DNA of 64,000 nt from positions 129,992-193,991 of the forward strand of contig JAJCZM010000049.1 of assembly GCA_029262375.1 (NCBI GenBank). The letters run 5' to 3'. The position numbers and the translations under genes were made by a program. This document shows positions 3,207 through 27,335 of the stretch, one piece after another. How positions within the stretch are numbered: position 1 is the first letter of the stretch; each line of letters begins with the position of its first letter. The notes under the pieces are model-generated. The model saw nothing but the letters and a program-made list of their open reading frames with translations, was not told the origin of the DNA and ran no database searches. The stretch comes from Deltaproteobacteria bacterium. GTDB lineage: Bacteria > Desulfobacterota > Binatia > UBA1149 > SPBQ01.

Positions 3207-4223
3207 ATGAAGATATACACCACAGTACCCGTCGAGAACCCGTGTGATGGGGGGCGTCTCTTCAACCACCTGGAAAACATCGGCTATGACGGCGCATTTT
3301 CCTACGAAACCAAGCATGACCCGTTTCTCCCGCTGGTCGCGGCGGCAGCGAAGACACAGTCATTGCGCCTAGGGACCGCGATCGCCATCGCCTTCGCGAG
3401 AAATCCGATGAATCTCGCGAACATTGGCTACGATTTGCAGGTCGCGAGCCGGGGGCGATTCGTACTCGGCCTCGGTTCTCAGATTCGACCGCACATCCGC
3501 AATCGCTACAGCTCGGTGTGGTCGAAACCTGCGCGCCGCATGCGGGAGATGGTTCTCGCTATTCGCGCGATCTGGGATGCATGGGAAGGCACCACCAAGC
3601 TCGCTTTCGAGGGGGAATTCTATCGCCACACGCTGATGACGCCTGCATTCGATCCCGGCCCCAACCCGTATGGACCGCCCAAGATCCACCTTGCGGGCGT
3701 ACAGCCGCGAATGATCGAGGTCGCCGGGGAAGTCGCCGATGGATTCATCGCTCACCCGTTCGCGACCGACAAGTCGCTGCGCGAGCACATCCTACCGGCG
3801 CTCCAGCGTGGCCGAGAGAAATCGGGGAGAAGCCGCAGCGACTTTGAGGTCGTCTGCGTCAAACTCGTCGCGACCGGCGATACCCAAGACGAGATCCGCC
3901 ACAACCGCGAAGTCGTTCGCAAGCAACTCGCGTTCTACGGTTCCACTCCCGCCTACAAACCGACGCTGGACTGCCACGGCTGGGGCGACCTCCAGCCCGA
4001 ACTCAATGCGGCATCCAAGCAAGGGAAATGGGACGAGATGGCCGACATGATTAGCGATGAAATTCTCGATGCGATCGCGATCTCGGGCCCCCGCGAAGCC
4101 ATCGCGCCGATGCTCGTGGACCGCCTCGGCGGCCTAGCGGACGGGGTGAGTATCGAGAACACGCGAAATCCCGACGAGCGAAACTTCGTAGACATCGTCG
4201 CCGCGTTCAAGAAGCTGCAATAG
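3207..4223 (+). CDS. Luciferase-like (LLM) F420/flavin-dependent oxidoreductase, left flank of Hxs locus
   Basis: 338-residue TIM-barrel oxidoreductase of the luciferase-like monooxygenase superfamily. Markers are the opening strand MKIYTTVPVENP, the segment LRLGTAIAIAFARNPMNLANIGYDLQ, then RFVLGLGSQIRPHI, and the substrate-side GPPKIHLAGVQPRMIEVAGEVADGFIAHPF. This pattern fits F420-dependent members common in actinobacteria and deltaproteobacterial lineages. A good ribosome site (AGGG) lies six bases before the ATG. It is divergent from phoU and converges on the radical SAM-methyltransferase gene that ends 16 bases downstream. A second LLM protein sits at the other end of the same locus (23.5 kb), so the pair may belong to it, though that is only positional evidence. 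The substrate is unknown. Confidence 0.9.
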   Translation: MKIYTTVPVENPCDGGRLFNHLENIGYDGAFSYETKHDPFLPLVAAAAKTQSLRLGTAIAIAFARNPMNLANIGYDLQVASRGRFVLGLGSQIRPHIRNRYSSVWSKPARRMREMVLAIRAIWDAWEGTTKLAFEGEFYRHTLMTPAFDPGPNPYGPPKIHLAGVQPRMIEVAGEVADGFIAHPFATDKSLREHILPALQRGREKSGRSRSDFEVVCVKLVATGDTQDEIRHNREVVRKQLAFYGSTPAYKPTLDCHGWGDLQPELNAASKQGKWDEMADMISDEILDAIAISGPREAIAPMLVDRLGGLADGVSIENTRNPDERNFVDIVAAFKKLQ

Positions 4224-4239
4224 TCGTGAAACTCGGCGA

Positions 4240-6021
4240 CTAGTTGCGCCGGTAGTGTAGGAACCATTGGTTGCTGGTATCAGGCCCGACATCAGCCCGC
4301 GCCAGCAATTCCAACGGCAACTCGGCCACCGAGCGAGTCGCCTCAGCAGCTCCGTCGTTGCGAAAGTGCTCGAACCGCGCCGGCCCTGCTTGCGCACGCT
4401 CGGCGTGATCTACGGTGCGCAACAGGCCGAAGGCCTCGTTGTCGGCGAGCAGCAACGTGCCACCCGGACGCAGCGCTCGCACCAGTCGAGAGATCACGTC
4501 GCCGGGATCGGCTATGTGGTTGTAGCTGCGTAGCAGCAGGATGTGATCGTAGGTGTTCGCTTCGAGGGCGAGATCTTCGATCCCGCACACATCGATCTTC
4601 GCCCACGGCCATTTCTTGCGCAGACGATCCGCCGCCGCCTGATCCGGCTCGACGCCGAGATAGCGAACCGTGCCCTTCTCGACCATAGGCTCGAGCACGT
4701 CGCCGTAACGACCGTCCCCGCATCCCACGTCGAGTATCGCGCCGCTCAGACCGGCGACGAGGTCACGAATCGCCTGATCATCACGCGTGAAAACGTCTTG
4801 CTCGTCCACGCGGTAACAACGCGCGCAACTTTCGAAAGCTTCGCAGCTTCGGCACTCGCCGAGTACGGTAAGTTTGCGAAGGTCCGCGGCGAAATCGTCG
4901 GGAGCGTCCTTGTCGCTCAGGTCAATGTAGACCTGCTCTGCATCGCGCTTGATGCTCGCGATCTCAACGTCCGAGAAATCCCGCGTGCGAGTTTCGAACA
5001 ACTGCATACGGTCACCGGAACGAACGAAGATCGATCGTCCGATATCGTAGGGTGTCACGCCGGTACCGAAGATCGGGCAAGGCGTTCCGTCCTTCCACTC
5101 GAGATCGCGGGCGGCCACGTAGTTGAACGAATTGCTGCGGGCAGCAGTGACTGGGCGCAATTCGTCGGCACCGAAGCTCTTGAAGTACTCGGTATAGATC
5201 CCGGGGCACGGACCGGCCAAACCGCAGCCCTTACAAGGATCCGGCTGCACTTTGTTGCGATCGTCTACGGGGAAGAAATCGTCCTCCCAAACTTCCGACA
5301 TCGTTGCGAACTTATGCGACTTCAGATCGCTGTACGCGCTCTCGATCCCCGGCATAAGACACAGCGGAAAACCGCCGTGACTCACGCGCGCGCCCATTCC
5401 CTTCTCGCGACCGTACGCAACCGCGTCGGCCACACGCTGCGCGGCGTGCGTGAGGTTGGGCACGATCTGTTGGAACAGATGCATCGCGCCGCCCTTGGCT
5501 TCGGTCATGGAGAAATTCAGATGCACGTCGTCGAGGCCCTGAACCGCGTCGACCACCGGTCGCAGTTGATCCACGTTGACGCGCGTGACTACGCAGTTCG
5601 CGGTCAGGTCCAGCCCCTTGCCGGAGCAGTTCTTGAGCCCACCGAACGTCTGCTCGAACGCTTCGGAGCGTACGTTGGCGTCATGCACCTTGGCTGTACC
5701 ACCGTGCAACGAGAGGTAGACGTATCGAAGACGCAGCGCGAGCAGCTTGTCGAGCAGCTTCGGGTAGCTGAGCATGCGCCCGTTAGTGACCAGCCCGAAA
5801 TCCAGGCCGAGTGCGGCAGTGCGCTGTGCCCAGTGCACGAGTTCAGGACGCATGGTCGGTTCGCCGCCGGAAAGCACGACCATCGAATGACCCAGTTCCG
5901 CGGCACGCACGATCTTACGGTCGATAGCCTCTTCGCTATCGTCGATATGGCGCACGTCGAACGTGTGGCAAAACGAGCAGTGGTCGTTGCAGGCATAGCC
6001 TACTTTGATGAGTGCCTTCAT
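4240..6021 (-). CDS. Radical SAM enzyme fused to a class I SAM methyltransferase
   Basis: 593 residues. An N-terminal radical SAM core carries the 4Fe-4S motif Cys11-x3-Cys15-x2-Cys18 and the SAM-binding SGGEPTMRP at 51-59. After the barrel comes an auxiliary cysteine region shared with three neighbouring enzymes: PLC at 219-221, then CKGCGLAGPC at 263-272. A second cysteine cluster, CRSCEAFESCARC, follows at 390-402. The C-terminal ~165 residues are a Rossmann methyltransferase with motif I DVGCGDGRYG at 431-440 and a typical LRPGGTLLLADNEAFG motif near the end. The two activities could act in sequence on a peptide (inference). It lies downstream of hxsB on the same strand with a 109-base gap that holds a small GC hairpin. 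Confidence 0.9.
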   Translation of the reverse strand: MKALIKVGYACNDHCSFCHTFDVRHIDDSEEAIDRKIVRAAELGHSMVVLSGGEPTMRPELVHWAQRTAALGLDFGLVTNGRMLSYPKLLDKLLALRLRYVYLSLHGGTAKVHDANVRSEAFEQTFGGLKNCSGKGLDLTANCVVTRVNVDQLRPVVDAVQGLDDVHLNFSMTEAKGGAMHLFQQIVPNLTHAAQRVADAVAYGREKGMGARVSHGGFPLCLMPGIESAYSDLKSHKFATMSEVWEDDFFPVDDRNKVQPDPCKGCGLAGPCPGIYTEYFKSFGADELRPVTAARSNSFNYVAARDLEWKDGTPCPIFGTGVTPYDIGRSIFVRSGDRMQLFETRTRDFSDVEIASIKRDAEQVYIDLSDKDAPDDFAADLRKLTVLGECRSCEAFESCARCYRVDEQDVFTRDDQAIRDLVAGLSGAILDVGCGDGRYGDVLEPMVEKGTVRYLGVEPDQAAADRLRKKWPWAKIDVCGIEDLALEANTYDHILLLRSYNHIADPGDVISRLVRALRPGGTLLLADNEAFGLLRTVDHAERAQAGPARFEHFRNDGAAEATRSVAELPLELLARADVGPDTSNQWFLHYRRN

Positions 6022-6091
6022 ATCGAAGTCGTGCCGGCCGCTCTTCGGGCGGGCACATCAAGCTTGCCGGGTCCACCACCGCATTGCCAGA

Positions 6092-6105
6092 GCCCCATCC
6101 GGGGC
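6092..6105 (-). other. Small GC hairpin between hxsB and the radical SAM-methyltransferase gene
   Basis: Perfect 5-base-pair stem GCCCC/GGGGC with the loop ATCC. No run of T follows in either direction, so it is not a good intrinsic terminator. It could stabilise the upstream message or damp read-through between the two enzyme genes. Confidence 0.3.
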
Positions 6106-6130
6106 GCGGACTAGACGCACTGACTCGGAA

Positions 6131-7609
6131 CTAAGCGTCCGCGGACTGAATGAACTGCTCTTGCGGCCGCGAGATCGTCCAGCGTTCAAAGATCGCACGT
6201 GTCTCGGGATCCGCACCGTTTAGGCGCTTCACCAGCATGTCGAAGATCCCCATGTGCTTGCGACACCACGTAGACTCGATCATCCGGCCCTGGATCGAGC
6301 CCTGCGTGACATAGTTATATTCGGGTTGCTGCCCGCAATACGGCTTGTAGGCACAGCTCGCACAGCCGGGAAGCTGATCGTTGGAACTCGCGAGCACCAG
6401 GCTCCGAGCGAGATCACCACCCATCATCTCTGAGTAGTTCGTATTGTCGACGTGACCGAGTTTGAAGAACTCATCGCCCATCGCCGCGACCATGCGGCCT
6501 TCGTCGCTTGTGTAGATGGATCCGTCGGGGTGGTAGGCCAGTTGCCCGACAACCGCGCCGCCGGGTGTTCGCAGGTCGAGATAGTTTGGATCGTAGCCGC
6601 CGATCATCTTGCTGAGCATGATCGCAGCAAGACGCTCCATCACCTGAACGCCCTGCTTGTTGAGCGAGATGATGTAGTCGAGCGCTCTCTCGTAGAACGC
6701 GAGGAATTCGTCAATGTCGTAGCCGAGCGTGTGGTTCGTGATTGCAGCGAAACCGAACGGATCGAGTACACGCAAGAAAATCGCGCGACAGCCGAGGTCA
6801 ACGTAGGTGTCGACGATCTCTTCGGCTCGGTCGAGTGAGTAGCGCGTGATCGTCGGCAGAGCTTCCGCGTGGTAGAGCCCCTCTTCGAGCCCCATGTCGC
6901 GATAGCGCTCGTTGATCTTGCGCACCCAACTCGAGGCATGCTCCCACGAGCTACCGCCTTCCTTGCCGCGCATGATGCGTACCTTGTCGTGAAGGTCTTG
7001 CGGGCCGTCGAGGCTGGTGCAGATCTGCACTTTGTTCTCGATGAGATAATCGAGACGCTCGTCGTCCATGAGCGTCATGTTCGTCACGACAGCGAAACTC
7101 AGCGTCTTGTTCGCGATCTTGTTGCGCTCACGCGCGTACTCGATGATGTGCTGAAGCACGGGCCAGTTGGCCATCGGCTCGCCGCCCTGGAACTCGATCG
7201 TCAGACCACCGGAGCTCGTCTGAAGTGCAAAATCGACACACTTCTCTGCGGTCTCGGGGCTCATGTCGGTCTCGGTGCGGTCCATCCCCACGACCGAGGA
7301 GTGGCAGTACTGACAGCCGAGATTGCAACGCTCGGTTAGAACGAATCCGTGCAGAATCGGTCCTTGATCGAGATGCGGCCGTCTCGCCCAATATCGATCG
7401 GCATAGGTGTCGTTGTCTACGGTGCCCGCAACGAAGGCTTTCGTGCGCAGTTCGTCCGTCGTGGCATCGTCGCAGGGAGCTTCTCCCTTCAAAAAGCGAT
7501 CGGCGTCGTCGTTGCTGAGAAAGGTGCACTCACCGAGGTCGTTGCTGAGGAACGAAAAGTCTTCGAAACGACGAAGATTGAACGGAAGCAGATCGAGAGA
7601 AGCGGGCAT
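6131..7609 (-). CDS. hxsB: His-Xaa-Ser system radical SAM/SPASM maturase HxsB
   Basis: 492 residues from the ATG at 7609, which has AAAGGAG eleven bases upstream; a longer GTG frame to 7699 would overrun the divergent promoter. The N-terminus (SLDLLPFNLRRFEDFSFLSND) is the HxsB opening. The radical SAM motif is Cys95-x3-Cys99-x2-Cys102 in LTERCNLGCQYC, with FQGGEP at 140-145, then TNMTLM, CTSLDGPQDLH, the HxsB-type IFLRVLDPFGFA and GSIYTSDEGRMVAAMGD. SPASM-type cysteines end the protein (CASCAYKPYCGQQP, then WCRKHMG). HxsB works with HxsC and HxsD on proteins with repeated His-Xaa-Ser, exactly the repeat encoded at 8.8 kb. This is the anchor for naming the locus. Confidence 0.92.
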   Translation of the reverse strand: MPASLDLLPFNLRRFEDFSFLSNDLGECTFLSNDDADRFLKGEAPCDDATTDELRTKAFVAGTVDNDTYADRYWARRPHLDQGPILHGFVLTERCNLGCQYCHSSVVGMDRTETDMSPETAEKCVDFALQTSSGGLTIEFQGGEPMANWPVLQHIIEYARERNKIANKTLSFAVVTNMTLMDDERLDYLIENKVQICTSLDGPQDLHDKVRIMRGKEGGSSWEHASSWVRKINERYRDMGLEEGLYHAEALPTITRYSLDRAEEIVDTYVDLGCRAIFLRVLDPFGFAAITNHTLGYDIDEFLAFYERALDYIISLNKQGVQVMERLAAIMLSKMIGGYDPNYLDLRTPGGAVVGQLAYHPDGSIYTSDEGRMVAAMGDEFFKLGHVDNTNYSEMMGGDLARSLVLASSNDQLPGCASCAYKPYCGQQPEYNYVTQGSIQGRMIESTWCRKHMGIFDMLVKRLNGADPETRAIFERWTISRPQEQFIQSADA

Positions 7610-7717
7610 GTGCGGTAGCACTCCTTTCGCATCGCGCGCGGTCAATGTGTGACAACCGACCGGCTGGACATGCGCCTGTAACCGAGCCAACGTTGCCACC
7701 CCCTACGGGGCACGCAG
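7610..7717. promoter_or_regulatory. Divergent promoter region of hxsB and the HxsC-like gene
   Basis: The 108 bases between the two divergent start codons must hold promoters for both directions. They contain the hxsB ribosome site (AAAGGAG near 7623) and, just before the plus-strand ATG, a CCCC-TAC-GGGG mini-hairpin. I cannot place a confident -35/-10 pair. Confidence 0.4.
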
Positions 7718-8650
7718 ATGCAGATTCTCATTATCTCGCTGGACCATAGTTGCAACAACCACTGCCGGTTCTGCAGCCAGGCCGACTTGGCTCCCCCGAG
7801 CGCTCCGCCCGATATTCGTGCGCGTTTGGAAAAAGCTCGCGGCGAAGGAGCCAACGTTGTCCACTTCGTCGGCGGTGAACCGACGCTGCACGATGCGCTG
7901 CCGAGTTGGATCGCCGCCGCCAAGCATCTCGGCTTCGAACGTATTGGACTGCAAACGAACGGCCGCCGTCTCGCCTACCCCTCATATGCGCGTACGCTGG
8001 CCGCCGAGGGACTCGGCCCGGTCGATATTGCGCTACAGGGCGCTACCGGCGCACTGCACGACTATCACACGAACGCACCGGGAAGCTTCAAGCAGACCAT
8101 CAGCGGGCTCAAGCGAGCCCACGAGGCTTCCCTGGAGGTGGCGGTGACCACCGTGATCACGCGTTCTAACATGCGCCATCTTCCCGATCTGGGCGCAGCC
8201 ATGGGAGTCCTCAAGGTCGCCAACTGGCGAATGCGCATGTCCCTGCTCGTGGGACGCGCGCGCGAAGATGGCTCACGCCTAGTACCTCGCTGGAGCATGG
8301 TCGAGCCATACGTGCGCCGCGCTCTCGACGAGACGGCCAAGAACGCCTGCACCGCGGTCGTGAGCGGACTACCGCTGTGTATCGACCCCTCGCTCCCCCG
8401 CTACGATCCGGCGTCGGATGAGGCGCCGCAGGGCGTCTATGGGCATGCCTGTGAAGATTGCGCCGCTAGGGCGGCCTGCGCGGGGTTCGATGCTGGATAC
8501 TTGACGCTTTATGGCGAGCGCGACCTGCGCCCCATGAAAGAAGGCCGCCCGGAGATGCGGGGCGGCCCTGATTTCAGTGATCCGCTGAAACTGCCTTTCG
8601 TGGGCGGACTGGGGAGAACGGTTGCGGACCAGCCGGTCCCTAGCGACTAA
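7718..8650 (+). CDS. HxsC-like radical SAM protein
   Basis: 310-residue radical SAM enzyme. The cluster motif is Cys12-x3-Cys16-x2-Cys19 in CNNHCRFCSQ, and the SAM site is FVGGEPTLHD. The CNxxCxxCSQ form is what I recall of HxsC, the partner of HxsB, but the rest is closer to the other small radical SAM proteins here, so I do not assign the symbol. The C-terminal part has the locus-specific auxiliary signature: LPLCI, then CEDCAARAACAGFDAGY and DLRPM. It is divergent from hxsB and converges on the Ser-His-Gly precursor gene. An 8-base-pair perfect stem (GGCCGCCC/GGGCGGCC) lies inside the last 40 codons; it may be fortuitous. Confidence 0.82.
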   Translation: MQILIISLDHSCNNHCRFCSQADLAPPSAPPDIRARLEKARGEGANVVHFVGGEPTLHDALPSWIAAAKHLGFERIGLQTNGRRLAYPSYARTLAAEGLGPVDIALQGATGALHDYHTNAPGSFKQTISGLKRAHEASLEVAVTTVITRSNMRHLPDLGAAMGVLKVANWRMRMSLLVGRAREDGSRLVPRWSMVEPYVRRALDETAKNACTAVVSGLPLCIDPSLPRYDPASDEAPQGVYGHACEDCAARAACAGFDAGYLTLYGERDLRPMKEGRPEMRGGPDFSDPLKLPFVGGLGRTVADQPVPSD

Positions 8651-8756
8651 CGGCACTCGTAGCAGCGGACAATCGGCGGACCATGCGGCGGATCGCGCGA
8701 TTCATCGCTCGAGTAGTCGCGCGAGCAATCGCTCGGTGAGCCGCTGCGACGAAGCG

Positions 8757-9035
8757 CTACCAGGAGCCGTGGGATCCGTGCGAACCGTGCGAACCGTGGG
8801 ATCCATGCGAGCCGTGCGAACCGTGGGATCCGTGAGATCCGTGCGAGCCGTGGGATCCGTGCGAGCCGTGAGAACCATGCGAACCGTGCGACACGTGCTG
8901 CGCAAGGATGATGTCTTCCGGAGAGCCATCGCCCGCGGTCAGATCGAGGTCCGATACCAGATCGTTCTCGTCGGACTTCAGCATGCCCTTGGCTGTACGC
9001 TCAAATTTAGGAAAGTCCTGGTCTTTTTTTGCCAC
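8757..9035 (-). CDS. His-Xaa-Ser repeat precursor-like protein with 14 Ser-His-Gly repeats
   Basis: 92-residue protein. Residues 1-48 form an acidic leader-like region without a signal peptide (MAKKDQDFPKFERTAKG..., then SPEDIILAQHV). Residues 49-90 are 14 uninterrupted Ser-His-Gly triplets, closing with Ser-Trp. Read in register this is His-Gly-Ser, i.e. a His-Xaa-Ser repeat, the hallmark of HxsA-type substrates of HxsB/C/D. The start is GTG at 9035 with AGAGG eight bases upstream. It is the last gene of the minus-strand run 12.9-8.8 kb, directly after the two HxsD-like genes. I infer that it is the core substrate; no cleavage motif such as GG is evident before the repeats. Confidence 0.85.
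   Translation of the reverse strand: MAKKDQDFPKFERTAKGMLKSDENDLVSDLDLTAGDGSPEDIILAQHVSHGSHGSHGSHGSHGSHGSHGSHGSHGSHGSHGSHGSHGSHGSW
8766..8891 (-). repeat. 14 x 9-base coding repeat (Ser-His-Gly)
   Basis: Fourteen in-frame 9-base units. Codons vary among copies: TCC, TCG and TCT for Ser; GGC, GGA and GGT for Gly; CAC and CAT for His. Amino acids are identical throughout. This points to selection on the peptide rather than very recent DNA slippage. Confidence 0.9.
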
Positions 9036-9084
9036 TGTATTTACCTCTTACTCCGTACCGATCGACCAAACCCTCAAACGAAGG

Positions 9085-9312
9085 TCAGCCGGCCTGCTCT
9101 TGATGAGCGTGTACGGAAGCTCCCAAAACATAATTAGCGAACGCTCCTACGAGCGCCCCCTCACTATCGGTGTCAGTCGCGTCCACGCTGACCTCAATGT
9201 AATCCGCATCCGATTCGTCAATTCGCAGTTGTCCGTATTCAGCGAACACCGCGACACCCTCGGATACGGCATCGGGAAAATATATTGAGCGATGAAATTT
9301 GACGGTGCTCAC
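9085..9312 (-). CDS. Second, short HxsD-like protein
   Basis: 75 residues. The pattern KFHRSIYFPDAVSEGVAVFAEYGQL, a beta-rich middle (YIEVSVDATDTDSE) and the C-terminal GALVGAFANYVLGASVHAHQE resemble a compact HxsD (strand-helix-strand-helix ending in an F-x-N-x-L helix). The similarity is by eye and weaker than for the gene upstream. The GTG start overlaps the upstream stop in GTGA, so translation is coupled. HxsD family members are small partners of the radical SAM maturases and are suspected to recognise the substrate. Alternatively this is a distinct accessory protein. Confidence 0.6.
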   Translation of the reverse strand: MSTVKFHRSIYFPDAVSEGVAVFAEYGQLRIDESDADYIEVSVDATDTDSEGALVGAFANYVLGASVHAHQEQAG

Positions 9313-9788
9313 TTCTTGGAGCCCTCTGTCTTCTCTTCATCAGGAGACTTCTTGCCGTATTTCTCTTCCCACGACATGGCAATGCCGAGAGGATCGTCGA
9401 ACGGCTCGTCATCGAGTTCCAGAGACTCGAGTTCGGAAAGATCGAGCGCTGACGTCGCACCCCCTCCCGCACCGGCCCCTACTAGGGCACGATTGACGAT
9501 CGCTTGGATCAAATCCCCGCTGCGCTCATAGACGGCGCTGCGTGTGGATTGCGCAAGGAGCTCGTTACCAAACTCACCCGCAAGATCCTCGAGCGCGCTG
9601 TCATCGTCGCCGCGCGCCCGCAATTCGACGACCAGATTGCCGTTCGCGGCTTTGTCGAGCCAAACGTAGCAGCGATCAATGAACACGTACGCCGCCCCGA
9701 AGACGGCATCGCGTGCGTGCACACCGAGGTCCACCTCGACGCGTACGGAGCGATTGGCAGTATCAACCGTTGTGGCTGCAGTGCTCAT
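9309..9788 (-). CDS. hxsD: HxsD-like accessory protein of the His-Xaa-Ser system
   Basis: 159 residues. Residues 14-105 match the HxsD layout: VEVDLGVHARDAVFGAAYVF, then CYVWLDKAANGNLVVELRAR, then the characteristic helix LAGEFGNELLAQSTRSAVYE and IQAIVNRAL. A Gly/Ala-rich linker and a charged tail (about 50 residues, ending in SDEEKT-type acidic/basic text) extend it beyond the usual ~100 residues. It sits 15 bases after the Tat-protein gene and overlaps the next HxsD-like gene by four bases. In the family it is thought to act with HxsB and HxsC on the repeat protein, possibly as a substrate-binding adaptor. Confidence 0.75.
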   Translation of the reverse strand: MSTAATTVDTANRSVRVEVDLGVHARDAVFGAAYVFIDRCYVWLDKAANGNLVVELRARGDDDSALEDLAGEFGNELLAQSTRSAVYERSGDLIQAIVNRALVGAGAGGGATSALDLSELESLELDDEPFDDPLGIAMSWEEKYGKKSPDEEKTEGSKK

Positions 9789-9803
9789 CGAGTTGTATAC
9801 CCT

Positions 9804-10415
9804 TTAGCCCTTGAGCGCGCGGTAGTTCATCGATGCCCACAGCTGCTTGCGCGTGGGCAGTTCGACGCTCGCCTGCGAGCCCTCGTTCGCGCGAATGCGA
9901 TCACGAAGTACCGCGACCACACGGCCGATCTGCTGCTCGGTGGGCGTACTCCCGTTCGCACCGTTACGGATGAACAGGCTGTAGTGCTCAGTCACCGCGA
10001 CGGGCCGCACGTTGGCGTCGTCACCGGCTCGCCGGCAGACCTCTACCGCCCAAGCGCGTCCGCGACCGTCCTGCACCGAGATCACACCGCGATCCCAAGC
10101 ATCAACGGCGATCGACTCCACCGTGGCACTCGCCACCGAGGAGCCCGCCGCAAGCGGCGACACCAACGAGGTGAGTGCCGATTCCAGCGAGGCCTTGCGC
10201 TGCTCTACCGCAGCTTGCTCGGCATCGATTTCACCCGGGTTCGCCGACGAGGACCCTGCCGGTGCCTGGCCTGCGCCCGCGCCCGCGACACTTGCTGCCA
10301 GAGGAAGCGTTGCCGCCACGCCGAGGCCGGTTGCGCCCATGCGAATAAAGTTTCTTCTCGAGAGCCGTTCGCTCATGTCCGTCTCCATGGAGTCAAGCGT
10401 CTTATCGTCTTTCAT
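9804..10415 (-). CDS. Tat-exported protein of unknown function in the Hxs operon
   Basis: 203 residues from the ATG at 10415 (GGTGG a few bases upstream). The twin-arginine signal SRRNFIRMGATGLGVAATL, followed by a hydrophobic stretch and Ala-rich cleavage region, predicts folded export by Tat, which often means a cofactor or pre-assembled complex. The mature part has an Ala/Gln-rich helical region, then strands such as RGRAWAVEVCRRAG and EHYSLFIRNG, and ends in KQLWASMNYRALKG. I recognise no family. It lies 19 bases after the cysteine-rich secreted protein gene and 15 before hxsD, so all are probably co-transcribed. Confidence 0.8.
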   Translation of the reverse strand: MKDDKTLDSMETDMSERLSRRNFIRMGATGLGVAATLPLAASVAGAGAGQAPAGSSSANPGEIDAEQAAVEQRKASLESALTSLVSPLAAGSSVASATVESIAVDAWDRGVISVQDGRGRAWAVEVCRRAGDDANVRPVAVTEHYSLFIRNGANGSTPTEQQIGRVVAVLRDRIRANEGSQASVELPTRKQLWASMNYRALKG

Positions 10416-10434
10416 CTTGCCACCCATCCGCCTG

Positions 10435-15325: not shown

Positions 15326-16557
15326 GCCGCAAAGACTCTCGGTCTCTTCCACATTTCGTGGACCTGACCCTACCCAGCGATGACTCGACGACGGTACGAA
15401 CACTACTGTCGCAGTATCTGAGCTTGCAGTATCGCGATCTCATGCGCATGCGGCTCGCGCAGCAAAGCAGCGAGCAGCGAGCGCTCGAAGCGCTACAGAA
15501 GCACTGCAAAGGAGTCGCCGCGTCCGAGCCCGGCGCTATCCTCAGCGCGCTGCGCAAGCCGACGATCGGCGGCTTGATTCGCTTCCTCGCGGGCGCCGCC
15601 GGCGCATCGAGCGACGCACCGAAGTGGATCGCTCAGCTTTGCGCCACCCTCTACGCGGAGCTCGCTATCGCCGGCAACGCAGCCCCCGCGATCCTGCTCT
15701 CGCCTACGCCGCGTCGTTTCATCCTGATCGGTGCCGACACGATGCTCACGCTTCCGAGCGATACAGCGAGTTGCCGGATGCACGCCGACGGACTCACGTA
15801 CGTGGGCACGTCAGCACCGACGACATTGTCTTGGGAGGAGATCGCGTCCGGGGAAACTCCAATCAGCTCACCGGCTGCAGCCCACGTCTCAGGCGCGGTC
15901 CGTCTCGCACTGGCCGACGACAGCCCGCTCGCCGAACACGAGACGCATCCGGACAAAGCTGGAAACGCACTGGATCTAGGCGGCAAGTCCGACAACGAGT
16001 GGGCAGGAGCGATGCGTGCGGGTCTCGAGCTGGTTCGCACCGGTGTTCCTGCCGTTGCCGATGAGATCGAATTGCTAATCCAACAGCTCGTGCCTGTCGG
16101 TTTCGACGCACACTCCCATCTCTCCGCGTCCTATCAGGAAATGATCGGAACGATCTATCTATCGTTGCACCCGGAACCGATGACGCTCGCCGAAGCGCTC
16201 ATCCACGAGCACTCGCACAACAAGATCAACATGCTTTGGACCATGGCTCCGGTCATCGAGAATGCGTTTGCGCCGAACTATCCGTCACCGTTCCGCCCCG
16301 ATGAGCGACCGCTTCACGGCGTACTGTTGGGCGTTCACGCGTTCCTGCCGGTCGAGCGCCTGTACGAACGCCTCGCCGAAGTCGCGCATCCCGTGACCGG
16401 CGATCCAAACTTCGAGCGGCGGCGGCGCGCAATTCGAGAAAACAATCGCGCCGCGTGCGAGACGTTAGAACGCTACGCCGAGCCGTCGGCGGCGGGTCGA
16501 TCGGTCATGGATGAGATCATGAAGTGGAATGCCCACTTCGAAGCGATCGGGTCGTAG
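15322..16557 (+). CDS. HExxH-motif putative peptide modification protein
   Basis: 411 residues from an ATG that overlaps the upstream radical SAM stop as ATGA. The key motif is ALIHEHSHNKINML, with His295, Glu296 and His299 forming HExxH, which in related proteins binds a metal. This matches the HExxH domain family (TIGR04267 type) found in radical SAM and other RiPP clusters. From memory, some such proteins are iron/2-oxoglutarate peptide hydroxylases; the activity here is untested. The long N-terminal region (1-250) is mostly helical and Ala-rich. There is no signal peptide, so it acts in the cytoplasm with the radical SAM enzymes. Confidence 0.82.
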   Translation: MSRKDSRSLPHFVDLTLPSDDSTTVRTLLSQYLSLQYRDLMRMRLAQQSSEQRALEALQKHCKGVAASEPGAILSALRKPTIGGLIRFLAGAAGASSDAPKWIAQLCATLYAELAIAGNAAPAILLSPTPRRFILIGADTMLTLPSDTASCRMHADGLTYVGTSAPTTLSWEEIASGETPISSPAAAHVSGAVRLALADDSPLAEHETHPDKAGNALDLGGKSDNEWAGAMRAGLELVRTGVPAVADEIELLIQQLVPVGFDAHSHLSASYQEMIGTIYLSLHPEPMTLAEALIHEHSHNKINMLWTMAPVIENAFAPNYPSPFRPDERPLHGVLLGVHAFLPVERLYERLAEVAHPVTGDPNFERRRRAIRENNRAACETLERYAEPSAAGRSVMDEIMKWNAHFEAIGS

Positions 16558-16580
16558 CGGCTGCGCGAGCTGTGCGCCGG

Positions 16581-17750
16581 TCAGTCTTCGTTAACGGCCG
16601 GCCGTTCCATCGAGACGCCGCGCTTCTCGGCTCGGCGCCCTTCGGACTTCCTCTTCGAATGATACAACCGCAGGCCTTGGTCCGTGACCTGACCGACTCC
16701 CGGCAACGCGTCGCCCTGTTCTGGCACGGAGTCGGGGTCGGCGGCGCGACGAGCGTTGTGCGCGTCGAAGGCGGCGCGCCACTCGGTAACATTCTTAAAC
16801 TGGGTCGTGGGATCACCCGGATCATTCAGAATCGTTTCAACGATCGGCTCCAGCGGCATGAACAACGGATATAGTTCTGCTGGATCGTAACCATCGCCGC
16901 GATTGAACAAGCCCCCACATATTTCGCGTACCGAACAGGCGGCACAGACGTCGGCGTACAGATGGTCCCAGTCCGTCTGCCGGACGGTTTGCTTGTCGTC
17001 GAGGAAGTGCACGATGCGCTCTTCGAGTTTCACGATCTTTCGTGTCTCGGTGCTCGCCCATGCGAAGTCCGCCATGTAACACAGCGGAACTTTCTCGACT
17101 CGGAACGTTCGCCCACTATCGTTGAGCAGGGTCAGTGCACGACGCAGCGAATGCTCGAAATCGGCCAACCGCGGCGTGTACTGGTCTTGATTGACCTCCG
17201 CCCTCCCCATCGAGGGGTCGAGGTTGTTCCACACAAAGTGGCGAATGTAGGGGTGATGTTCGAGCCAGTACTCAATGTTCTCATGCAGATGATCCGCATT
17301 GAACGCATTGATCACGCAGTTGATGTTGATGTCTATGCCGGCGTTGTGGGCAGCTTCGATTCCACTCATCGCGCGACCGAGCGTATCTTTCATGCCACGC
17401 AGCCGTTCTTCGACGTCAGGGCGGATCGAGTAAACCGACACGTGCGCGAGTTGAAGCCCCGCATCGGCCATTTCCTGCGCAAAACCTTCGTTCCCGAGGT
17501 TGTGACCGTTCGTGATCATGCGGACGTGGAGTCCACAATCGCGCGCATAGCGCGTGATCTTCGGTAGCTCGGGGTGAAGCGTAGGTTCACCGCCGGTCAG
17601 GATGATTCCGAAATAGTCGCGCTCGACAAAGTCGTCCACCAGGACCTTCATTGAGTCGAAGTCGTGTGTGTACGGAGACGTCGGGTTCGAGCAGAAACCG
17701 CAAAGATGATTGCAGTGTCTGACGACTTGAATGTAACCGATATTGGCCAA
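16581..17750 (-). CDS. Radical SAM protein linked to the secreted cysteine-rich proteins
   Basis: 389 residues, TTG start supported by GGAG six bases upstream. The cluster motif is Cys13-x3-Cys17-x2-Cys20 (HCNHLCGFC) and the SAM site LTGGEPTLHPELP. The barrel text MITNGHNLGNEGF and VNCVINAFN-type strands follow. It ends with the same auxiliary signature as its neighbours: KVPLCYMADF, then VCAACSVREICGGLFNRGDGYDPAELYPL, followed by a charged 70-residue tail. It is the last gene of the minus-strand run 23.1-16.6 kb, behind two secreted proteins and a strong hairpin. It converges on the HExxH gene. Confidence 0.88.
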   Translation of the reverse strand: MANIGYIQVVRHCNHLCGFCSNPTSPYTHDFDSMKVLVDDFVERDYFGIILTGGEPTLHPELPKITRYARDCGLHVRMITNGHNLGNEGFAQEMADAGLQLAHVSVYSIRPDVEERLRGMKDTLGRAMSGIEAAHNAGIDININCVINAFNADHLHENIEYWLEHHPYIRHFVWNNLDPSMGRAEVNQDQYTPRLADFEHSLRRALTLLNDSGRTFRVEKVPLCYMADFAWASTETRKIVKLEERIVHFLDDKQTVRQTDWDHLYADVCAACSVREICGGLFNRGDGYDPAELYPLFMPLEPIVETILNDPGDPTTQFKNVTEWRAAFDAHNARRAADPDSVPEQGDALPGVGQVTDQGLRLYHSKRKSEGRRAEKRGVSMERPAVNED

Positions 17751-17769
17751 ACGGGTCTCCGCAAGTCAG

Positions 17770-17798
17770 CCGGAGCGTTTCACTGAGAAACGCTCCGG
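17770..17798 (-). terminator. Strong hairpin between secreted-protein gene and radical SAM gene
   Basis: Perfect 12-base-pair stem CCGGAGCGTTTC/GAAACGCTCCGG with a 5-base loop, located after the stop at 17806 and before the radical SAM ribosome site. No U-run follows, so full termination is unlikely. It would fit partial attenuation or mRNA stabilisation, giving more of the upstream secreted protein than of the enzyme. Confidence 0.6.
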
Positions 17799-17805
17799 TG
17801 CTCGC

Positions 17806-19551
17806 TTACTCGCAAGTCGATGCGGCCAGATCCAATGTTGCCGAATCGATGGTCGCGTCGAAGAAAATCACGTCGAACGGGTTCAAGACATCGACAGGCG
17901 ACGGATTCTGCATCACCAGCAGTTCGCCAGGAGCCGGCGGCACACTGGAGTACGTCCCCTGCAGATCGATCACTGTATCGTGATGGATCACCGTATTGAT
18001 GATGCCCACGATCTCCGCCTCGATAAACGTATCGAACTGGACAGTAGCGCTACCGCCACCGCCGAGCGGCGTGATATCAATCTCGCCCGGGATCACATTG
18101 ACGGTCTCCTCGATGATACCGCGCGTTCTCTGATCCACGGCCGGGTGTGCCGTGTCGTCGCGCAGCCTAAGCTCGAGGTCGCCCTGCGCGGTCGATGATT
18201 CAAACAACATGTCGATGACCTCAGCCTCGACATCGTCCAACCCGTCCGTATCTGCGTCGCCGAGCGTACCGAGCTCAACGCGCACGGTGACCGAACCGAA
18301 GGTCTTGATCTGCTGCGGACCACCGGCGATCGGAATATTGAGGACCGCGTCGATACACGCCGTCGGGAACACGAAGATCAGATCGTCAGGTAGCGTCGTG
18401 GTCGTGGTGGTCGTCGTCGTGGTCGTGGTGGTCGTCGTCGTAGGCGGCAACGTAGTGCCAGGGCAGGAGCAGTCCGGCAGACAGGCGCCCGGACACAGCG
18501 AACTGGCGATACCGTCACACGCTTCCTCCGCGCCGCCCGGCCCACTCGTGCACGACGCGTTCGAACAGCGCACGTGGTCGCCGCAAATCGCAATCGTACA
18601 CGCGTTGGTACAGGTGTCTTGATTGTTCGGGTTGCCGTCGTCGCACTCTTCGCCTGCCTGAGGGAAGCCGTCGCCACACTGCTGCATCGTCGTCGTCGTC
18701 GTGCTGGTCGTGCTGGTCGTGGTCGTCGTGACCATCGCCGGGCAACTGTTGTTCACGACGCCTTCGTCGAAGAAATCACAATCCTGGGTCAGACCGTCGA
18801 CGCTGTTGAGCATCAAACAGGAGCGGCACCTTACGAGACGATCCATGCACAGACCGAAGTCGAGGACCCCGAGTGCGCCTCCACAAAAGCCGGGCAATAC
18901 GTTCGGCACCTGCGTGAGCGGGCACTTCCCGAGGAAGCTCACCATCAGCTTCGTCGTCGCCTTGCGAAGCTTCCCCTTCACGTCGGTCGCGACAGTATTG
19001 AAGCAAGCCTCGAGTTGCGCCGACGAACCGATACCAGCCGTCTTCAGCCCATCGCTCTTACACTTCACGAAATCTTTGAAGACCTGATCCGACAGCTTCG
19101 TGTAGGCTTTGCCCACGGCCGCACGGCAACCGGACGGGTCAGGAGGAATCGTCCCTCCGGTGTCTTCGCCGTAGATGTCTTCCGCAAGCTCCAGTCCCTC
19201 CAGGAACACCGCGGTGTTGGCCGTTGCGCCGTTCGTATAGCCGAAGTCCGGCACGTTGGAACAGTTCTTGGCTTCCTGCACGAGCAACTTGCCCTGCGCC
19301 TTCGCGATTCGTCCGCCCGGATCGGCGGCCACGCATTCGACCGGGTCGAGCGTTCCACCGCTCTCAACCTGCTTCGCACATCGCGCAACCGACTTGCTGA
19401 AAGTCTTCGCCAGCTTGCCGGCCGCCTTGTTGATCGACGTGATGCACTTGCGCTGTTCCGGGTTCTGGAACTGCGCCGACGCCGGCACAGTGAACCCAGC
19501 CACGAGCAACGTCGCGATAAGAATGGTGGATGCGTGTTTGGATCGCTTCAT
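17806..19551 (-). CDS. Secreted cysteine-rich protein with threonine linkers (paralogue 2)
   Basis: 581 residues. The ATG at 19551 has AGGA five bases upstream and starts a clean signal peptide (cut near PASA-Q); an in-frame ATG at 19605 overlapping the upstream stop is the alternative. Residues ~30-250 are the shared N-terminal domain: QRKCITSINKAAGKLAKTF..., PGFCGG, CRSC, CDFFDEGVVNNSC. Two threonine-rich linkers frame a Myxococcus-type cysteine repeat (QCGDGFPQAGEECDDG) and another cysteine-rich stretch. The C-terminal ~190 residues are beta-rich and end in Cys-Glu. Such Thr linkers are often glycosylated in exported proteins (inference). The gene follows the EGF protein gene and precedes the radical SAM gene. 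Confidence 0.85.
   Translation of the reverse strand: MKRSKHASTILIATLLVAGFTVPASAQFQNPEQRKCITSINKAAGKLAKTFSKSVARCAKQVESGGTLDPVECVAADPGGRIAKAQGKLLVQEAKNCSNVPDFGYTNGATANTAVFLEGLELAEDIYGEDTGGTIPPDPSGCRAAVGKAYTKLSDQVFKDFVKCKSDGLKTAGIGSSAQLEACFNTVATDVKGKLRKATTKLMVSFLGKCPLTQVPNVLPGFCGGALGVLDFGLCMDRLVRCRSCLMLNSVDGLTQDCDFFDEGVVNNSCPAMVTTTTTSTTSTTTTTMQQCGDGFPQAGEECDDGNPNNQDTCTNACTIAICGDHVRCSNASCTSGPGGAEEACDGIASSLCPGACLPDCSCPGTTLPPTTTTTTTTTTTTTTTTLPDDLIFVFPTACIDAVLNIPIAGGPQQIKTFGSVTVRVELGTLGDADTDGLDDVEAEVIDMLFESSTAQGDLELRLRDDTAHPAVDQRTRGIIEETVNVIPGEIDITPLGGGGSATVQFDTFIEAEIVGIINTVIHHDTVIDLQGTYSSVPPAPGELLVMQNPSPVDVLNPFDVIFFDATIDSATLDLAASTCE
18395..18442 (-). repeat. GTC/GTG-rich trinucleotide tract encoding a Thr16 linker
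   Basis: Mixed gtc/gtg triplets on the plus strand encode about sixteen consecutive threonines (ACC/ACG) on the minus strand. Codon mixing lowers slippage, but the tract could still vary in length between strains. A shorter similar tract lies at about 18685-18735. Confidence 0.75.
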
Positions 19552-19601
19552 GGTCGTCCTGCTCGTCCCGGATCGATTCTCGTTTGACGGCTTCCTCTCG
19601 T

Positions 19602-22600
19602 TCATGGGGCCGCCACCGTCGTGAGGAAGATGCCGATGAAGTCTCCGGTACGCGCGACATCAACCACCGAGGGTTGTAGACCCAAGAAGGCAGGCAGCGG
19701 GAAGGCTCCGAACGCACCGGCCAGGCTCGGAACGATCGGCGCAATCAGACCCGGCAGTACGAACTGCACGGTTGCCTCACTGATGCCGAGCGGGTTGTCG
19801 AGCACCGAGAAAGCGATGTTGGCCGGATCGGGCTCGATCAGCGACGGCACCAGATCACCGGTCCCGACGTCGATCGCCAAGTCGAACGCCGACAGTAGAT
19901 CCAACGTCAGCACACCGTAGCCGGTTTCCGGCAAGCCTACCGTGACGACCTCGATGAGCATGTGCGAGATCAGCAGTTCCGCGACCTCGCCCGCGCCGCC
20001 GGTATTGCCACTGAGCACCGGCGTGATCGTCGGCGTGATGCGCAACTTGAGCGGTGTCAGCGGATCCAATTGTCCGAACTCCGGCAAGAACGACGACAGC
20101 ACGCCCGCCGTGATGGTCTGCAACCCGGTCCCCGGTACAAACTCAACCTCGGTAATCTCCGAGCTCAAGGAACCCGCTTCGACCTGCGACGCGAGCACCT
20201 GATTGAACACCGAGTCCGACATCACCATGGCCATGTCGTAAGCGACGCCATTGGGGCTCGTACCGGAGGCCAGCTGCGCGAACGGATAAGTCTGCGGGAT
20301 GTAGTACGTCTCGGTAACCGTCGGCGCACTCGGATCCGGAGTGATCGTCGACATGATCGCGCCCGAAGCGAGCGTGATGCCGAAGTTGTCTTCCGGAATC
20401 GAGAACAGCGGCGTGTCCAGGTTCACGCCGAAACCACCACCGATGGCTCCGGTCAGCTCAACGTCAGCCAACGTGTCTTCGATCGCTTGCGCAACAGGAG
20501 CGTCCTGTGGCCCGCCTCCGTCCGGATCGGCCAGGAAGCCTACGAAGCCGTCCCTCGTAAGTTGCTCGATATCACCCACGAGAGACTGGACGATGTCGCC
20601 GATAATCGGCGCATCACAGATGCCGCTATAAAATTCCGACGCGAACGACGGCAAGAACTGAATGCCCACATCCGCCAGCTGGTTGACGTCGATGATCGTG
20701 TTGTCCGAGGGATCGGGTTCGAGAGCGTAGTCACCGGAAATGACCGTCTCGAGGGCAAAGATCCGAAGACCGCAGCTGATGTCGCCCGAGATCTGAACAT
20801 CGACGTCCAAGCGATCGAGCGTGATGTCGCCGTGAACGAGATTCGTCCTCGAATCCAGTTCGAGAGAAAAGCCGTCGAGACTTACCGACGCTAACGTTGC
20901 ATCGACGCAGATGAGGCCCAACAGGTAACACTCGTTGTCGATGATTTTGGTGCCCACCGGCAATAGAGTCGACGGATCGAGGTCAACGAGGCTGGTCAGT
21001 ACCGGACCGAATGCGTCGAAGCCGGCATCGGTGATACGCAATCCGACGCTCTGTTCGACTTCACCACCGTACGGCCGCGAGTCGCCGGAAATAACCACCA
21101 CACGGTCACGTACCGTGAAGCCGGTAGAGAGCTGCGTAACCTCGGCGCGCACGCCGTTGAAGATGAGTACCGGATCGAGCGGTATCGTCGTCGAGAACGA
21201 GCCGTCTACCGGATTGATCGGTACGACGATCGGCGAATCGTCGCCGGCCATGATCGTCAGTTGCACATCCCCGTACGGATTCGCCACGACCACACCCGTC
21301 ACACCGATGGTGCCGGCCTGCGTGAAGATGCCATGGGTCGGCGACGTCAGCGTCACCGTGATCGGGCTACAGACGCTAGCGAACGGATTGCCGTAGTGGC
21401 CGTCTCGACATTCGCAGTCGAAGGTACCCGGCTCATTGATGCAGTTCGCATCGACGGAACAGTTATCGCCGCCGTTCTCGCCGGCACACTCGTCGTAGTC
21501 GGTGCAGGTGACACCGTCGCCGAAGTAACCGGCGTTGCAGGTGCAATCGAAGCTGCCGCTCGTATTCAAGCACGTCGCTTCCGCGTGACAGTTGTCGGTG
21601 CCGAGAGCGCACTCGTCGTCATCGTCGCAGATCGCGACGCCGTCACCCGAGAAACCCGGCGCGCAAGCGCAGGAGAACGAGCCGGCGGGCGCATTGGTGC
21701 AGATAGCATTGAGATGACAGTTGTTGCCCGTGCCTTCACCGATGCATTCATTGTCGTCAACGCAGACGACGCCGCTACCGCTGTAACCCGGGTCGCACGT
21801 GCAGGTAAAGCTGCCTGGGATGTTGGTACAGAACGCGTGGATATCGCAGTTATCGACGAACATCGCGCATTCGTTCTGATCGATACAGTCCTGCCCGGGG
21901 CCGACGTAGCCGGGATTACAGTCGCAGGTGAACCCACCGACCGTGTTCATGCAGGTAGCGTCAGCGTGGCAGTTATTGCCCGTGCCTTCGCCAATACACT
22001 CGTTGTCGTCAACGCATAGGATCCCGTCGCCGCTGAAGCCTAAGTCACATGCGCAATCGAAGCTGGCCTCGGTGTTCGTACAAGTCGCGAACGCGTGGCA
22101 ATTGTCGGTGCCTTCGGTGCACTCGTCGATATCGGTGCAGTTGACGCCGTCGCCTTCGTAGCCGGCATCGCAAGAGCAAGAAAACCCATCAACTTCGTCG
22201 GTGCACGTCGCATTGACGTCGCAATTGTTGCCGCCGTTCTCGCCGGCGCACTCGTCCGCAGCAGGATCGACGCAGCTGCCGTCGGCGAGATTGTTGTCGT
22301 AGAGCTCGCAGGCGATATCGAGATTGTCGGTCTGTTTCAGGGTCAGGCAGGTCCGGCATCGTGAGCGCTGATCCATGCAGGTGAGAAGGTCACCGGACCC
22401 AACGCAGTCGCCTGGGAACGTAGCGGCGATATCGGCCACATCGATGCAGCGCTTGAGATACGCGCGCGCCAGCTTCTCGAACGATTTCCCGATGCGGCCC
22501 TTGATGTCGAAATCGACGGAGTCCATGCAGTTTCCGAGCTGCGCAGACGACTCAATAGAACTGATCTTGAGCCCGTCTTTCTTGCAATCGATGAAAGCCC

Positions 22601-23123
22601 GCAGGCGCGCATCGTTGACTCGCGTGTAGGTCTTGGCGACGGCCTGTTGGCAAGCGTTGCGCAAAGCCGTCGACGACCCCGGCGTAAGCGGCGTTTCCGC
22701 GTCATCGCTAAGCAGATCGTGGAGGTGCTCGATCGCTTGCGCTCGTGCTGAAGCGCTACCCGTTGCTGCCGGCACGTAACCGAAGTCGGGAACGGTGGTG
22801 CACTTCTTGGCATCGGTCTTGGCGGCTTTCTGCTGCGCCTTGACCACGCGGCTTTCGGCCGCCGCCAGGCACGCGTCCATGTTGCCCGGCGTCGCGGCAA
22901 GCACTCCGTCGGTCATGTCGTTGACGCAATCCGCAACGAGGCGATGTTGAGCCTTGGCCACTTTCGACAGCGCGCGGTTCATCCCGACAATGCATGATTG
23001 TTGACCTTTCGTTTGCGGCTGGGCTTCAACCGCGATGGGCAGCAGCGCCATTGAGAAGACAACGAAAGCGGCAAAGGTGGTCGAAAATACAGAACGGCAG
23101 TGACGCATTGGCGAACTCGACAT
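19602..23123 (-). CDS. Very large secreted protein: shared N-domain, seven EGF modules, BPI/TULIP-like C-terminus (paralogue 3)
   Basis: 1173 residues from the ATG at 23123 (AGGGG five bases upstream), with a signal peptide ending near AVEA-Q. Residues ~40-285 are the shared N-terminal cysteine domain ([22 protein letters not shown]). Residues ~290-580 hold seven calcium-binding EGF-like modules; most carry the aspartate/asparagine hydroxylation pattern C-x-N-x4-F-x-C-x-C, e.g. [12 protein letters not shown] and [12 protein letters not shown]. The last ~500 residues alternate strands and amphipathic helices, with two spaced cysteines (ISCGL, GICDAP) and a tail [12 protein letters not shown] that recall the eukaryotic BPI/LBP lipid-binding (TULIP) fold. 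That last assignment is by pattern only. No membrane anchor is seen. Confidence 0.85.
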
Positions 23124-23505
23124 GAGACCCCTAACTCCCGGCACACGCGCCCCACGTTCGCGCACACCCTATCTCCACGATCCGAATAGCCCGATAAGGA
23201 CGGGCCCGGTAGCTCCTACGATTTCGGCAGCTTATTCCAATTGAGCATTCAATGTACAGGGCGGAAACGAGTTTATGCTCACCTTGGGACGGCGAGCACG
23301 GATCGACGCCCGGCGGTAGCCCCTTCGGGTGGACGCAGGCGCTCGTTGTCCTGACCGGCTAGCCGGCCAAGCACCCGCCCGAATGGGGGCGTGCCCGACG
23401 TATGTGCATCGGACGGGGCCGCTTGCCTCCCATAGTGGACCGGGCAAAGCTCTGCCCGCCTCGGGGAACTGCGGCAGTACGACCCACGGAGACATCTATT
23501 ATAAT
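23124..23505. promoter_or_regulatory. Divergent intergenic region, right end of the Hxs locus
   Basis: 382 bases without a gene. Contains a perfect 12-base palindrome CCGGCTAGCCGG at 23355-23366, and an imperfect GC hairpin at about 23371-23394. TATAAT occurs directly before the LLM start codon, too close to serve as its -10 unless that start is wrong. The leader of the minus-strand EGF gene begins here too. Confidence 0.4.
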
Positions 23506-24480
23506 ATGCGTATTTCCTGCGGCCTGATTCCCGGTCCTGACTGCGTTGCTCACGCTCGCCTCGCCGAAGAGCTCGGCTACGAGAGAGTCTGGCTCGCCGA
23601 TTCGATCGCGATCTACGAAGACATCTTCATTTGGCTCGGCCAGATTGCCCGAGAGACTGAGCGCATCGGTCTTGGCACCGGCGTTCTGGTACCGCACACC
23701 CGCCACGTCATGACCACGGCGTCGGCGATCGCAACTATGGAAGAACTCGCCCCCGGCCGAATGGCATACGCATTCGGGACCGGTGCATCCGCGAGATGGA
23801 TCATCGGAAAAAAGCCGCTCACGCTCAAATACGTGCGAAATTACATCGTAGCCCTTCGCGGCCTGTTACGCGGAGAGGTCGTCGAGTACGACGGCGCGAA
23901 GCTACAGATGATCCATCGGCCGGGCCTGGCGCCGGCACGCCCCATCGACGTTCCGCTGCTCCTGAGTGCGGCCGGGCCCAAGGGTCAGGCTATCGCGAAA
24001 GAAATCGCCGATGGACTGATGAGTCTCTCCGGCGGCGTTCCCGATTGGGATTGGCACATCCAACTTGTCAGCGGCACCGTCTTGGCCGAAGGCGAAACGA
24101 TCGAAAGTGACCGCGTAAAGTCTTCGATTGGACCGTGGTACACGGTCGTCTACCACGGCATGTGGGAAGGCGATCCTACCAGCGTGGACATGCTGCCGCT
24201 CGGTGCGCAGTGGCGCGCCGCAATCGAGAAAGAACGCCCGGAAGACGAACGACATCTCTGCGTGCACGAAGGACACGTGACCGAAGTCACCAAGCGTGAC
24301 CGCGCAATCGTCGATGCCGCCGGCGAAAACCTATCGATGATGAGTTGGGTCGGAGACGCCGACGCGGTTCGGTCGATGGCCGACGCCGCCGGTAAGGACG
24401 GCGTCAGCGAGATCATGTACTGGCCCGCGGGGCCCGACATTGCGCGCGAGCTACGAGCCTTCGCCGAATCGGTCGGCTAG
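23506..24480 (+). CDS. Luciferase-like (LLM) oxidoreductase, right flank of Hxs locus
   Basis: 324 residues from the ATG at 23506; the frame is open further upstream, but that text is not protein-like. Family signs: MRISCGLIPGPD, ARLAEELGYERVWLADS, RIGLGTGVLVPHTRHVMTTAS, GRMAYAFGTGASARWI and VPLLLSAAGPKGQAIAKEIADG. This is the flavin/F420 luciferase-like TIM barrel. It is divergent from the EGF protein gene and shares its stop with the convergent membrane-protein gene. Identity to the LLM protein at 3.2 kb is limited, so they are not a recent duplication. The substrate is unknown. Confidence 0.9.
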   Translation: MRISCGLIPGPDCVAHARLAEELGYERVWLADSIAIYEDIFIWLGQIARETERIGLGTGVLVPHTRHVMTTASAIATMEELAPGRMAYAFGTGASARWIIGKKPLTLKYVRNYIVALRGLLRGEVVEYDGAKLQMIHRPGLAPARPIDVPLLLSAAGPKGQAIAKEIADGLMSLSGGVPDWDWHIQLVSGTVLAEGETIESDRVKSSIGPWYTVVYHGMWEGDPTSVDMLPLGAQWRAAIEKERPEDERHLCVHEGHVTEVTKRDRAIVDAAGENLSMMSWVGDADAVRSMADAAGKDGVSEIMYWPAGPDIARELRAFAESVG

Positions 24481-27309: not shown

Positions 27310-27335
27310 CCTAGACACTTCCGCGGACACGATAC

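Follow-up and report, generated by a model that had tools for sequence, protein, structure and literature searches.

A candidate enlarged His-Xaa-Ser peptide-modification locus with multiple radical SAM enzymes and a predicted Tat-exported partner

The prediction of His-Xaa-Ser (Hxs) systems goes back to 2011 (Haft and Basu, as cited in PMC9062424), and our literature search found no Hxs product or enzyme reaction. The canonical system comprises a repeat precursor (HxsA or HxsA2), HxsD, HxsB and HxsC (TIGR03976 to TIGR03979 and NF038296), and NCBIfam also holds the families HxsA4, HxsD-like (HxsD_rel) and HxsC4 (NF038313, NF038315 and NF038332). We analysed a 64,000-nucleotide stretch of DNA, hereafter the window (G000:C49:129992-193991), from a deltaproteobacterial draft genome of 4.8 Mb, using open reading frame calling and profile HMMs scored in bits against the family cut-offs. 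All genes named by an earlier sequence-only reading were recovered where it had placed them: HxsB, an HxsC-like protein, two HxsD-like proteins, a repeat peptide, three more radical SAM proteins, an HExxH protein and a Tat protein, together with three paralogous exported giants. Gene content, co-occurrence, repeat conservation, domain fusion and the complementarity of export signals were the observations from which we judge that the locus probably encodes an enlarged, RiPP-like system of the HxsA4 type for peptide modification and export. Our searches of the open literature found no account of the enlarged gene set, the Tat partner, the domain fusion, the inactive HxsB or the cassettes described below, and those on HxsA4, on Hxs in Myxococcota and on hydroxyhistidine with HExxH returned nothing useful.

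The repeat peptide (8757-9035, minus strand) scored 91.7 bits against the HxsA4 family NF038313 (cut-off 55), while its 14.1 bits against the classical HxsA family TIGR03979 did not reach the cut-off of 121.65. The precursor has 92 residues, with a 48-residue leader, 14 Ser-His-Gly (SHG) repeats encoded with mixed synonymous codons and a C-terminal Ser-Trp (SW), and HxsA4 occurs in three copies in this genome. Among 40 tails distinct at the DNA level, 681 of 709 triplets were exactly SHG, the repeat number ranged from 6 to 52, and the tails nearly always ended in SW, QW or AW. Serine was encoded by six codons and glycine by four in these tails, and this synonymous variation indicates that the amino-acid sequence of the repeats, not a DNA repeat, is under selection. 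One HxsA4 match, in genome G041, was treated as false since its SHG repeats sit inside a methyltransferase frame. A small exported protein of the window (49205-49792) has a very high content of His, Gly, Ser and Tyr and shows no SHG periodicity.

The leader-core junction of the HxsA4 precursors reads LAQHxSHxSH, and canonical precursors likewise carry H-x-S repeats after a similar A-x-H-x-S-H motif; the canonical HxsA2 from Acidiphilium has AEHYSHSSH at the corresponding point, and the canonical pre-core motif AEHYSHSSHSSH resembles the AQHxSHxSH found here. Canonical HxsA2 has its own signal peptide, the HxsA4 of the window has none, and the window differs further in its SHG repeats, which are many, in its two different HxsDs and in the lack of a true HxsC. 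The precursor and HxsD2 pass the cut-offs of the curated NCBIfam families, in contrast to HxsC4. The earlier proposal of a new, larger class held as to size but not as to novelty, because the peptide already matches the curated HxsA4 family; on its family matches, the locus is classed as a larger form of Hxs system. Another reading would make the peptide a classical RiPP, with its repeat region cleaved into small modified tripeptides for release, either as a signal or as an antibiotic. Repeated cores occur in other RiPPs, and the enzymes of RiPP type and the conserved leader-core junction would suit such a product. We nevertheless consider it unlikely, as the repeat number is large and variable and the conserved set includes neither a dedicated protease nor an ABC exporter or immunity gene.

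HxsB, a SPASM-type radical SAM maturase (6131-7699, minus strand, probable start near 7609), scored 508.4 bits against TIGR03978 (cut-off 370) and has an intact CNLGCQYC motif. Four other radical SAM proteins in the window resembled HxsC and HxsC4 in HMM searches, at scores far under the cut-offs. They are a 593-residue fusion of an HxsC-like radical SAM protein with a class I methyltransferase (4240-6021, minus strand; PF04055 and Methyltransf_11), a 310-residue HxsC-like protein (7718-8650, plus strand), a 601-residue protein with a long C-terminal half (13520-15325, plus strand) and a 389-residue protein that serves as the marker of the enlarged system (16581-17750, minus strand). The CxxxCxxC motif is present in the last three and at residue 11 of the fusion protein. 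No protein of the window reached the HxsC cut-off (TIGR03977, 267.9 bits): the best score, 100 bits, belonged to the 389-residue protein, and the other three scored 69.5 to 94 bits. The lowest of these was that of the fusion protein, for which the label HxsC-like is, judged by this score, right and HxsC would be wrong. The HxsC4 cut-off (NF038332, 500 bits) was likewise not reached, with a best score of 115.6 bits in the window and 144 bits for a protein outside it.

The gene set continues to the left of the window with three more radical SAM genes (C49:117129-122276; L029:7130-12277), which encode a B12-type double radical SAM protein with two CxxxCxxC motifs in a single chain and proteins of 298 and 563 residues. 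The range first assigned to the locus, 3207-24480, thus held for the core genes but was drawn too short on that side, and it took in two flanking LLM-class F420 oxidoreductases (3207-4223 and 23329-24480) that are absent at the loci of relatives and look unrelated. In the same window, a PhoU domain fused to an arsenate-reductase/low-molecular-weight phosphatase-like domain (1834-3165) adjoins a PstS-like gene. The same genome has a further cluster that encodes large radical SAM proteins, among them one containing two radical SAM domains (L030:7200-18638; G000:C16:112199-123637); this cluster is homologous to genes beside a pseudo-hxsB in genome G030 and to an Hxs locus in G036.

The HExxH protein (15322-16557, plus strand) scored 93.9 bits against TIGR04267 (cut-off 40), carries the motif HEHSH and matched ChlH (8s5f) in sequence with an E value of 6e-9, features that it shares with the aKG-HExxH peptide beta-hydroxylases ChlH, BpmH and PosC/PflC. 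ChlH-type enzymes hydroxylate the Cbeta of Asp and His, ChlH works after a radical SAM enzyme, and PosC hydroxylates runs of one residue, Gln (PMC12636437). In contrast to the ChlH-type enzymes, the HExxH protein of the window, with its predicted activity, is a separate protein, and its partner is HxsB-type, not cyclophane-forming. By analogy with these hydroxylases, beta-hydroxyhistidine in the SHG repeats would be the most likely single modification, and the methyltransferase fusion and the B12-type protein would point to methylation. Compared with canonical Hxs systems, the enlarged system adds four to eight radical SAM enzymes, the predicted aKG hydroxylase and a Tat partner, none of which is annotated near the canonical locus on an Acidiphilium plasmid (L196).

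This enzyme complement also bears on the possibility that poly-(Ser-His-Gly) is an exported metal chelator or buffer, whose ligands the enzymes merely trim or tune. The repeat tracts, which reach 52 His-containing units and nearly always terminate in Trp, and the TonB receptors downstream in the window would be in keeping with such a role, which we regard as improbable: simple binding does not need four to eight co-kept radical SAM enzymes, and no metal transporter or regulator accompanies the set in relatives. The window holds two copies of a module of a TonB-dependent receptor and a YfiR-like protein (25192-28243 and 52130-58079), the second also with a long protein bearing an N-terminal membrane segment.

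The genes are arranged in tightly spaced runs, as had been noted from the sequence, with intergenic spacing of -4 to 49 nt within 8757-12876 and 17806-23165, both on the minus strand. The reading frames of HxsD1 and HxsD2 share 4 nt, and the better start of the HExxH gene, an ATG at 15322, forms an ATGA overlap with the preceding radical SAM gene (13520-15325); both pairs are therefore likely to be translationally coupled. HxsD2, an HxsD-like protein of 75 residues (9085-9312, minus strand), scored 51.1 bits against NF038315 (cut-off 41), and HxsD1, with 159 residues (9309-9788, minus strand), scored 48.0 bits against TIGR03976, slightly under the cut-off of 50. The AlphaFold model of HxsD1 has a core with pLDDT above 90, and its C-terminal motif DDPLGIAxxWEEK is conserved. 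Fold searches of the PDB with HxsD1 and the Tat protein gave no match with an E value below 0.001, and the HxsD1 profile matched no PDB sequence. Weak matches of HxsD1 to type III secretion chaperones such as YscB/SycN were discarded.

The Tat partner (9804-10427, minus strand) consists of a twin-arginine signal, SRRNFIRMGA, and a conserved domain of about 120 residues. The pattern SRR-x-F-I followed by a hydrophobic stretch is kept across the family, and export is predicted on this basis. In five class relatives (G104, G110, G049, G036 and G107), the Tat domain is part of a single chain of 700 to 731 residues, with the domain order HxsD2, Tat domain, HxsD1, radical SAM and [2Fe-2S] ferredoxin (L166:5335-7497, L167:3385-5577, L168:2574-4676, L169:5587-7770 and L170:4668-6863). 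The domains were assigned by hhalign with E values of 2.5e-14, 1.5e-26 and 4e-14, controls gave no match, and Fer2 was matched at 7.5e-15. This five-domain fusion is absent from the genome of the window. Because the domains are fused in five genomes, the sequences argue that HxsD1, HxsD2 and the Tat domain work as a single functional unit, in a complex with a radical SAM enzyme.

Relatives also have a second HxsB operon, often arranged as Tat-HxsD1-HxsD2-HxsB'. The second HxsB paralogue has no CxxxCxxC motif in six genomes (L033:2102-3583, L034:1547-2977, L042:2157-3632 and others), and it has an intact motif in G110 and L063 (loci L158 and L063). A search of the window's genome found no such paralogue. 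The HxsB that has lost its radical SAM motif may have turned into a structural partner.

The export signals of the precursors complement those of the Tat family. HxsA4 peptides lack a signal wherever the genome has the Tat domain, and precursors with a hydrophobic or twin-arginine segment of their own were found only in four genomes without it (L090, L112, L119 and L121). The contrast of about 20 to 4 genomes (p ~1e-4) is weakened by kinship, for the counts are not independent, and three of the four genomes are small and deep-branching. On the simplest reading, HxsA4 would leave the cell by means of the Tat protein. This protein is probably the peptide carrier because the HxsA4 of the window has no export signal and because the Tat domain is fused elsewhere with HxsD1, HxsD2 and a radical SAM domain.

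We examined the distribution of the system in 148 genomes of the window's class and in a phylum-wide sample of 395 genomes. Within the class, HxsA4 and HxsB each exceeded their cut-offs in 12 of 148 genomes, and both did so in 11 (Fisher p 1e-14); the remaining HxsA4 hit is the one in G041. The Tat family was found in 12 of the 148, namely the 11 genomes with both HxsA4 and HxsB and one incomplete sibling, and nowhere else (p 1e-15). This obligate linkage bears out the proposal that the secreted Tat protein belongs with HxsB. In the phylum-wide sample, HxsA4 occurred in 1 of 395 genomes, that of the window, so the system is patchy. A tight operon in class relatives has the order rSAM580, rSAM13520, rSAM16581, B12rSAM, rSAM298, HxsD1, HxsD2, HxsB and HExxH (G056C3:553442-565217).

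The marker family of the 16581-17750 protein has 80 loci in named genomes, mainly of Myxococcota, with carriers in Nannocystis, Paraliomyxa, Labilithrix, Polyangiaceae and Myxococcaceae. At 22 of the 80 loci HxsB is no more than 10 kb from the marker, and genomes checked among the others usually encode it at a different place: of 16 marker-bearing genomes examined genome-wide, cultured myxobacteria among them, all carried HxsA4 and 15 carried HxsB. Homologues of the 13520-15325 protein adjoin the marker family at many of its loci. Most of the window's gene combination, including the radical SAM-methyltransferase fusion, is found together in a Polyangia genome (L191) and in Paraliomyxa miuraensis (L175), in both of which 600-residue full-length homologues of the fusion adjoin HxsD1, HxsD2, HxsB and HxsA4. 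Homologues of the 7718-8650 protein adjoin the genes of the Tat protein, the HExxH protein and the HxsC-methyltransferase in L191 and L192. The prediction that the extra enzymes belong with HxsB was thus borne out by their neighbourhoods, and the outcome named beforehand as its refutation, homologues that never adjoin hxsB in other genomes, was clearly contradicted. With 37 radical SAM matches across the genome, unrelated radical SAM operons could happen to adjoin in the window, but the genome-level co-occurrence (p ~1e-14 to 1e-15), the operons conserved in relatives and the domain fusions make such a coincidence extremely improbable.

In the tree of the marker family, the window falls in a Myxococcota clade (30 rows, 100/100), apart from the relatives of its own class, a placement consistent with either horizontal transfer or an old paralogue. 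Freshwater Myxococcales (L077 to L094) have HxsD1-HxsD2-HxsB with enzymes of the 13520 and 16581 types and no precursor nearby; in the four checked (L078, L084, L085 and L092), the HxsA4 gene is located elsewhere in the genome. A metagenome-assembled contig labelled Klebsiella pneumoniae (L082) groups with Myxococcales on the tree and is probably a mislabelled bin. HxsB was also found at three loci in viral contigs, whose gene lists gave no sign of the enlarged system.

The three exported Cys-rich giants (giant1, 10435-12876; giant2, 17806-19605; giant3, 19602-23165; all on the minus strand) are paralogous as proposed, sharing an N-terminal domain of about 290 residues at 33% identity (E 2e-44 and 3e-38). 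This Cys-rich domain, about 240 residues long in the genome-wide comparison, occurs at 31 places in the window's genome, a large exported family with many different C-terminal parts. Giant3 further has EGF_CA repeats and a conserved C-terminal domain of about 590 residues, for which a BPI/TULIP lipid-binding reading was rejected (Pfam E 0.056 only; an empty PDB profile search). Full-length homologues of giant3 adjoin the system in G030, G050, G056 and G104. Its C-terminal domain is enriched among genomes with Hxs (10 of 11, p 3e-7), and it was found in 30 of the 148 class genomes, 20 of them without Hxs. The link of giant2 to the system is weak.

Giant1, a repeat protein, is encoded by the first gene of a cassette that also holds the Tat protein and HxsA4 (in the window giant1-Tat-...-HxsA4), and two further giant-Tat-HxsA4 cassettes lie at G000:C18:122613-132140 (L156:4614-14140). 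No maturation enzymes were found in the 20-kb stretch read around these two, and the enzymes therefore probably act in trans on the C18 precursors. Several such cassettes also occur in relatives, where the giants bear disintegrin-like or disulfide repeats. The giant1 type is the only one that occurs in repeated cassettes with the Tat protein and HxsA4, so that the membership claimed for the giants stood for this type; system-specificity of all three was ruled out by the 31 places of the N-terminal domain and by the giant3 domain in genomes without Hxs. These findings bear on whether the giants themselves are the true substrates or scaffold, modified or cross-linked by the radical SAM enzymes, with HxsA4 as a tag or linker for a surface layer. 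The recurrent cassettes would agree with this, as would the giants with disintegrin, EGF or disulfide repeats that adjoin precursors in most class relatives. However, the Myxococcota loci examined have no giants, and this, with the general occurrence of the N-terminal domain and the presence of giant3 outside Hxs genomes, makes it quite unlikely that they are the substrates or scaffold.

We favour HxsA4 as the presumed substrate of an enlarged Hxs system. HxsD1 and HxsD2 would hold the HxsA4 leader, and HxsB, aided by several HxsC-like radical SAM enzymes, would put radical-derived changes into the Ser-His-Gly repeats. The aKG-HExxH enzyme would hydroxylate them, most likely at the histidine Cbeta, and further steps, perhaps the addition of methyl groups, would fall to the radical SAM-methyltransferase fusion and to the B12-type double radical SAM protein. 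The Tat partner would probably dock on the enzyme-peptide complex and take the finished HxsA4 through the Tat pore. In the window's class, a large exported Cys-rich protein would accompany each precursor and may retain the product or present it. The complete picture, with a leader-binding trio of HxsD1, HxsD2 and Tat carrier, piggy-back Tat export and display with a giant Cys-rich protein, is tentative, and we would put it forward as a possibility that the sequences suggest.

A far larger Hxs variant and the minimal gene set kept with it are now defined, and cultured carriers can be named, Nannocystis exedens DSM 71 and Paraliomyxa miuraensis SMH-27-4. If the complete picture is true, the trio would present a long (Ser-His-Gly)n to many radical SAM enzymes, including the radical-SAM-dead HxsB in relatives, and the system would represent a new peptide-export logic and a peptide polymer of an undescribed kind on bacterial surfaces.
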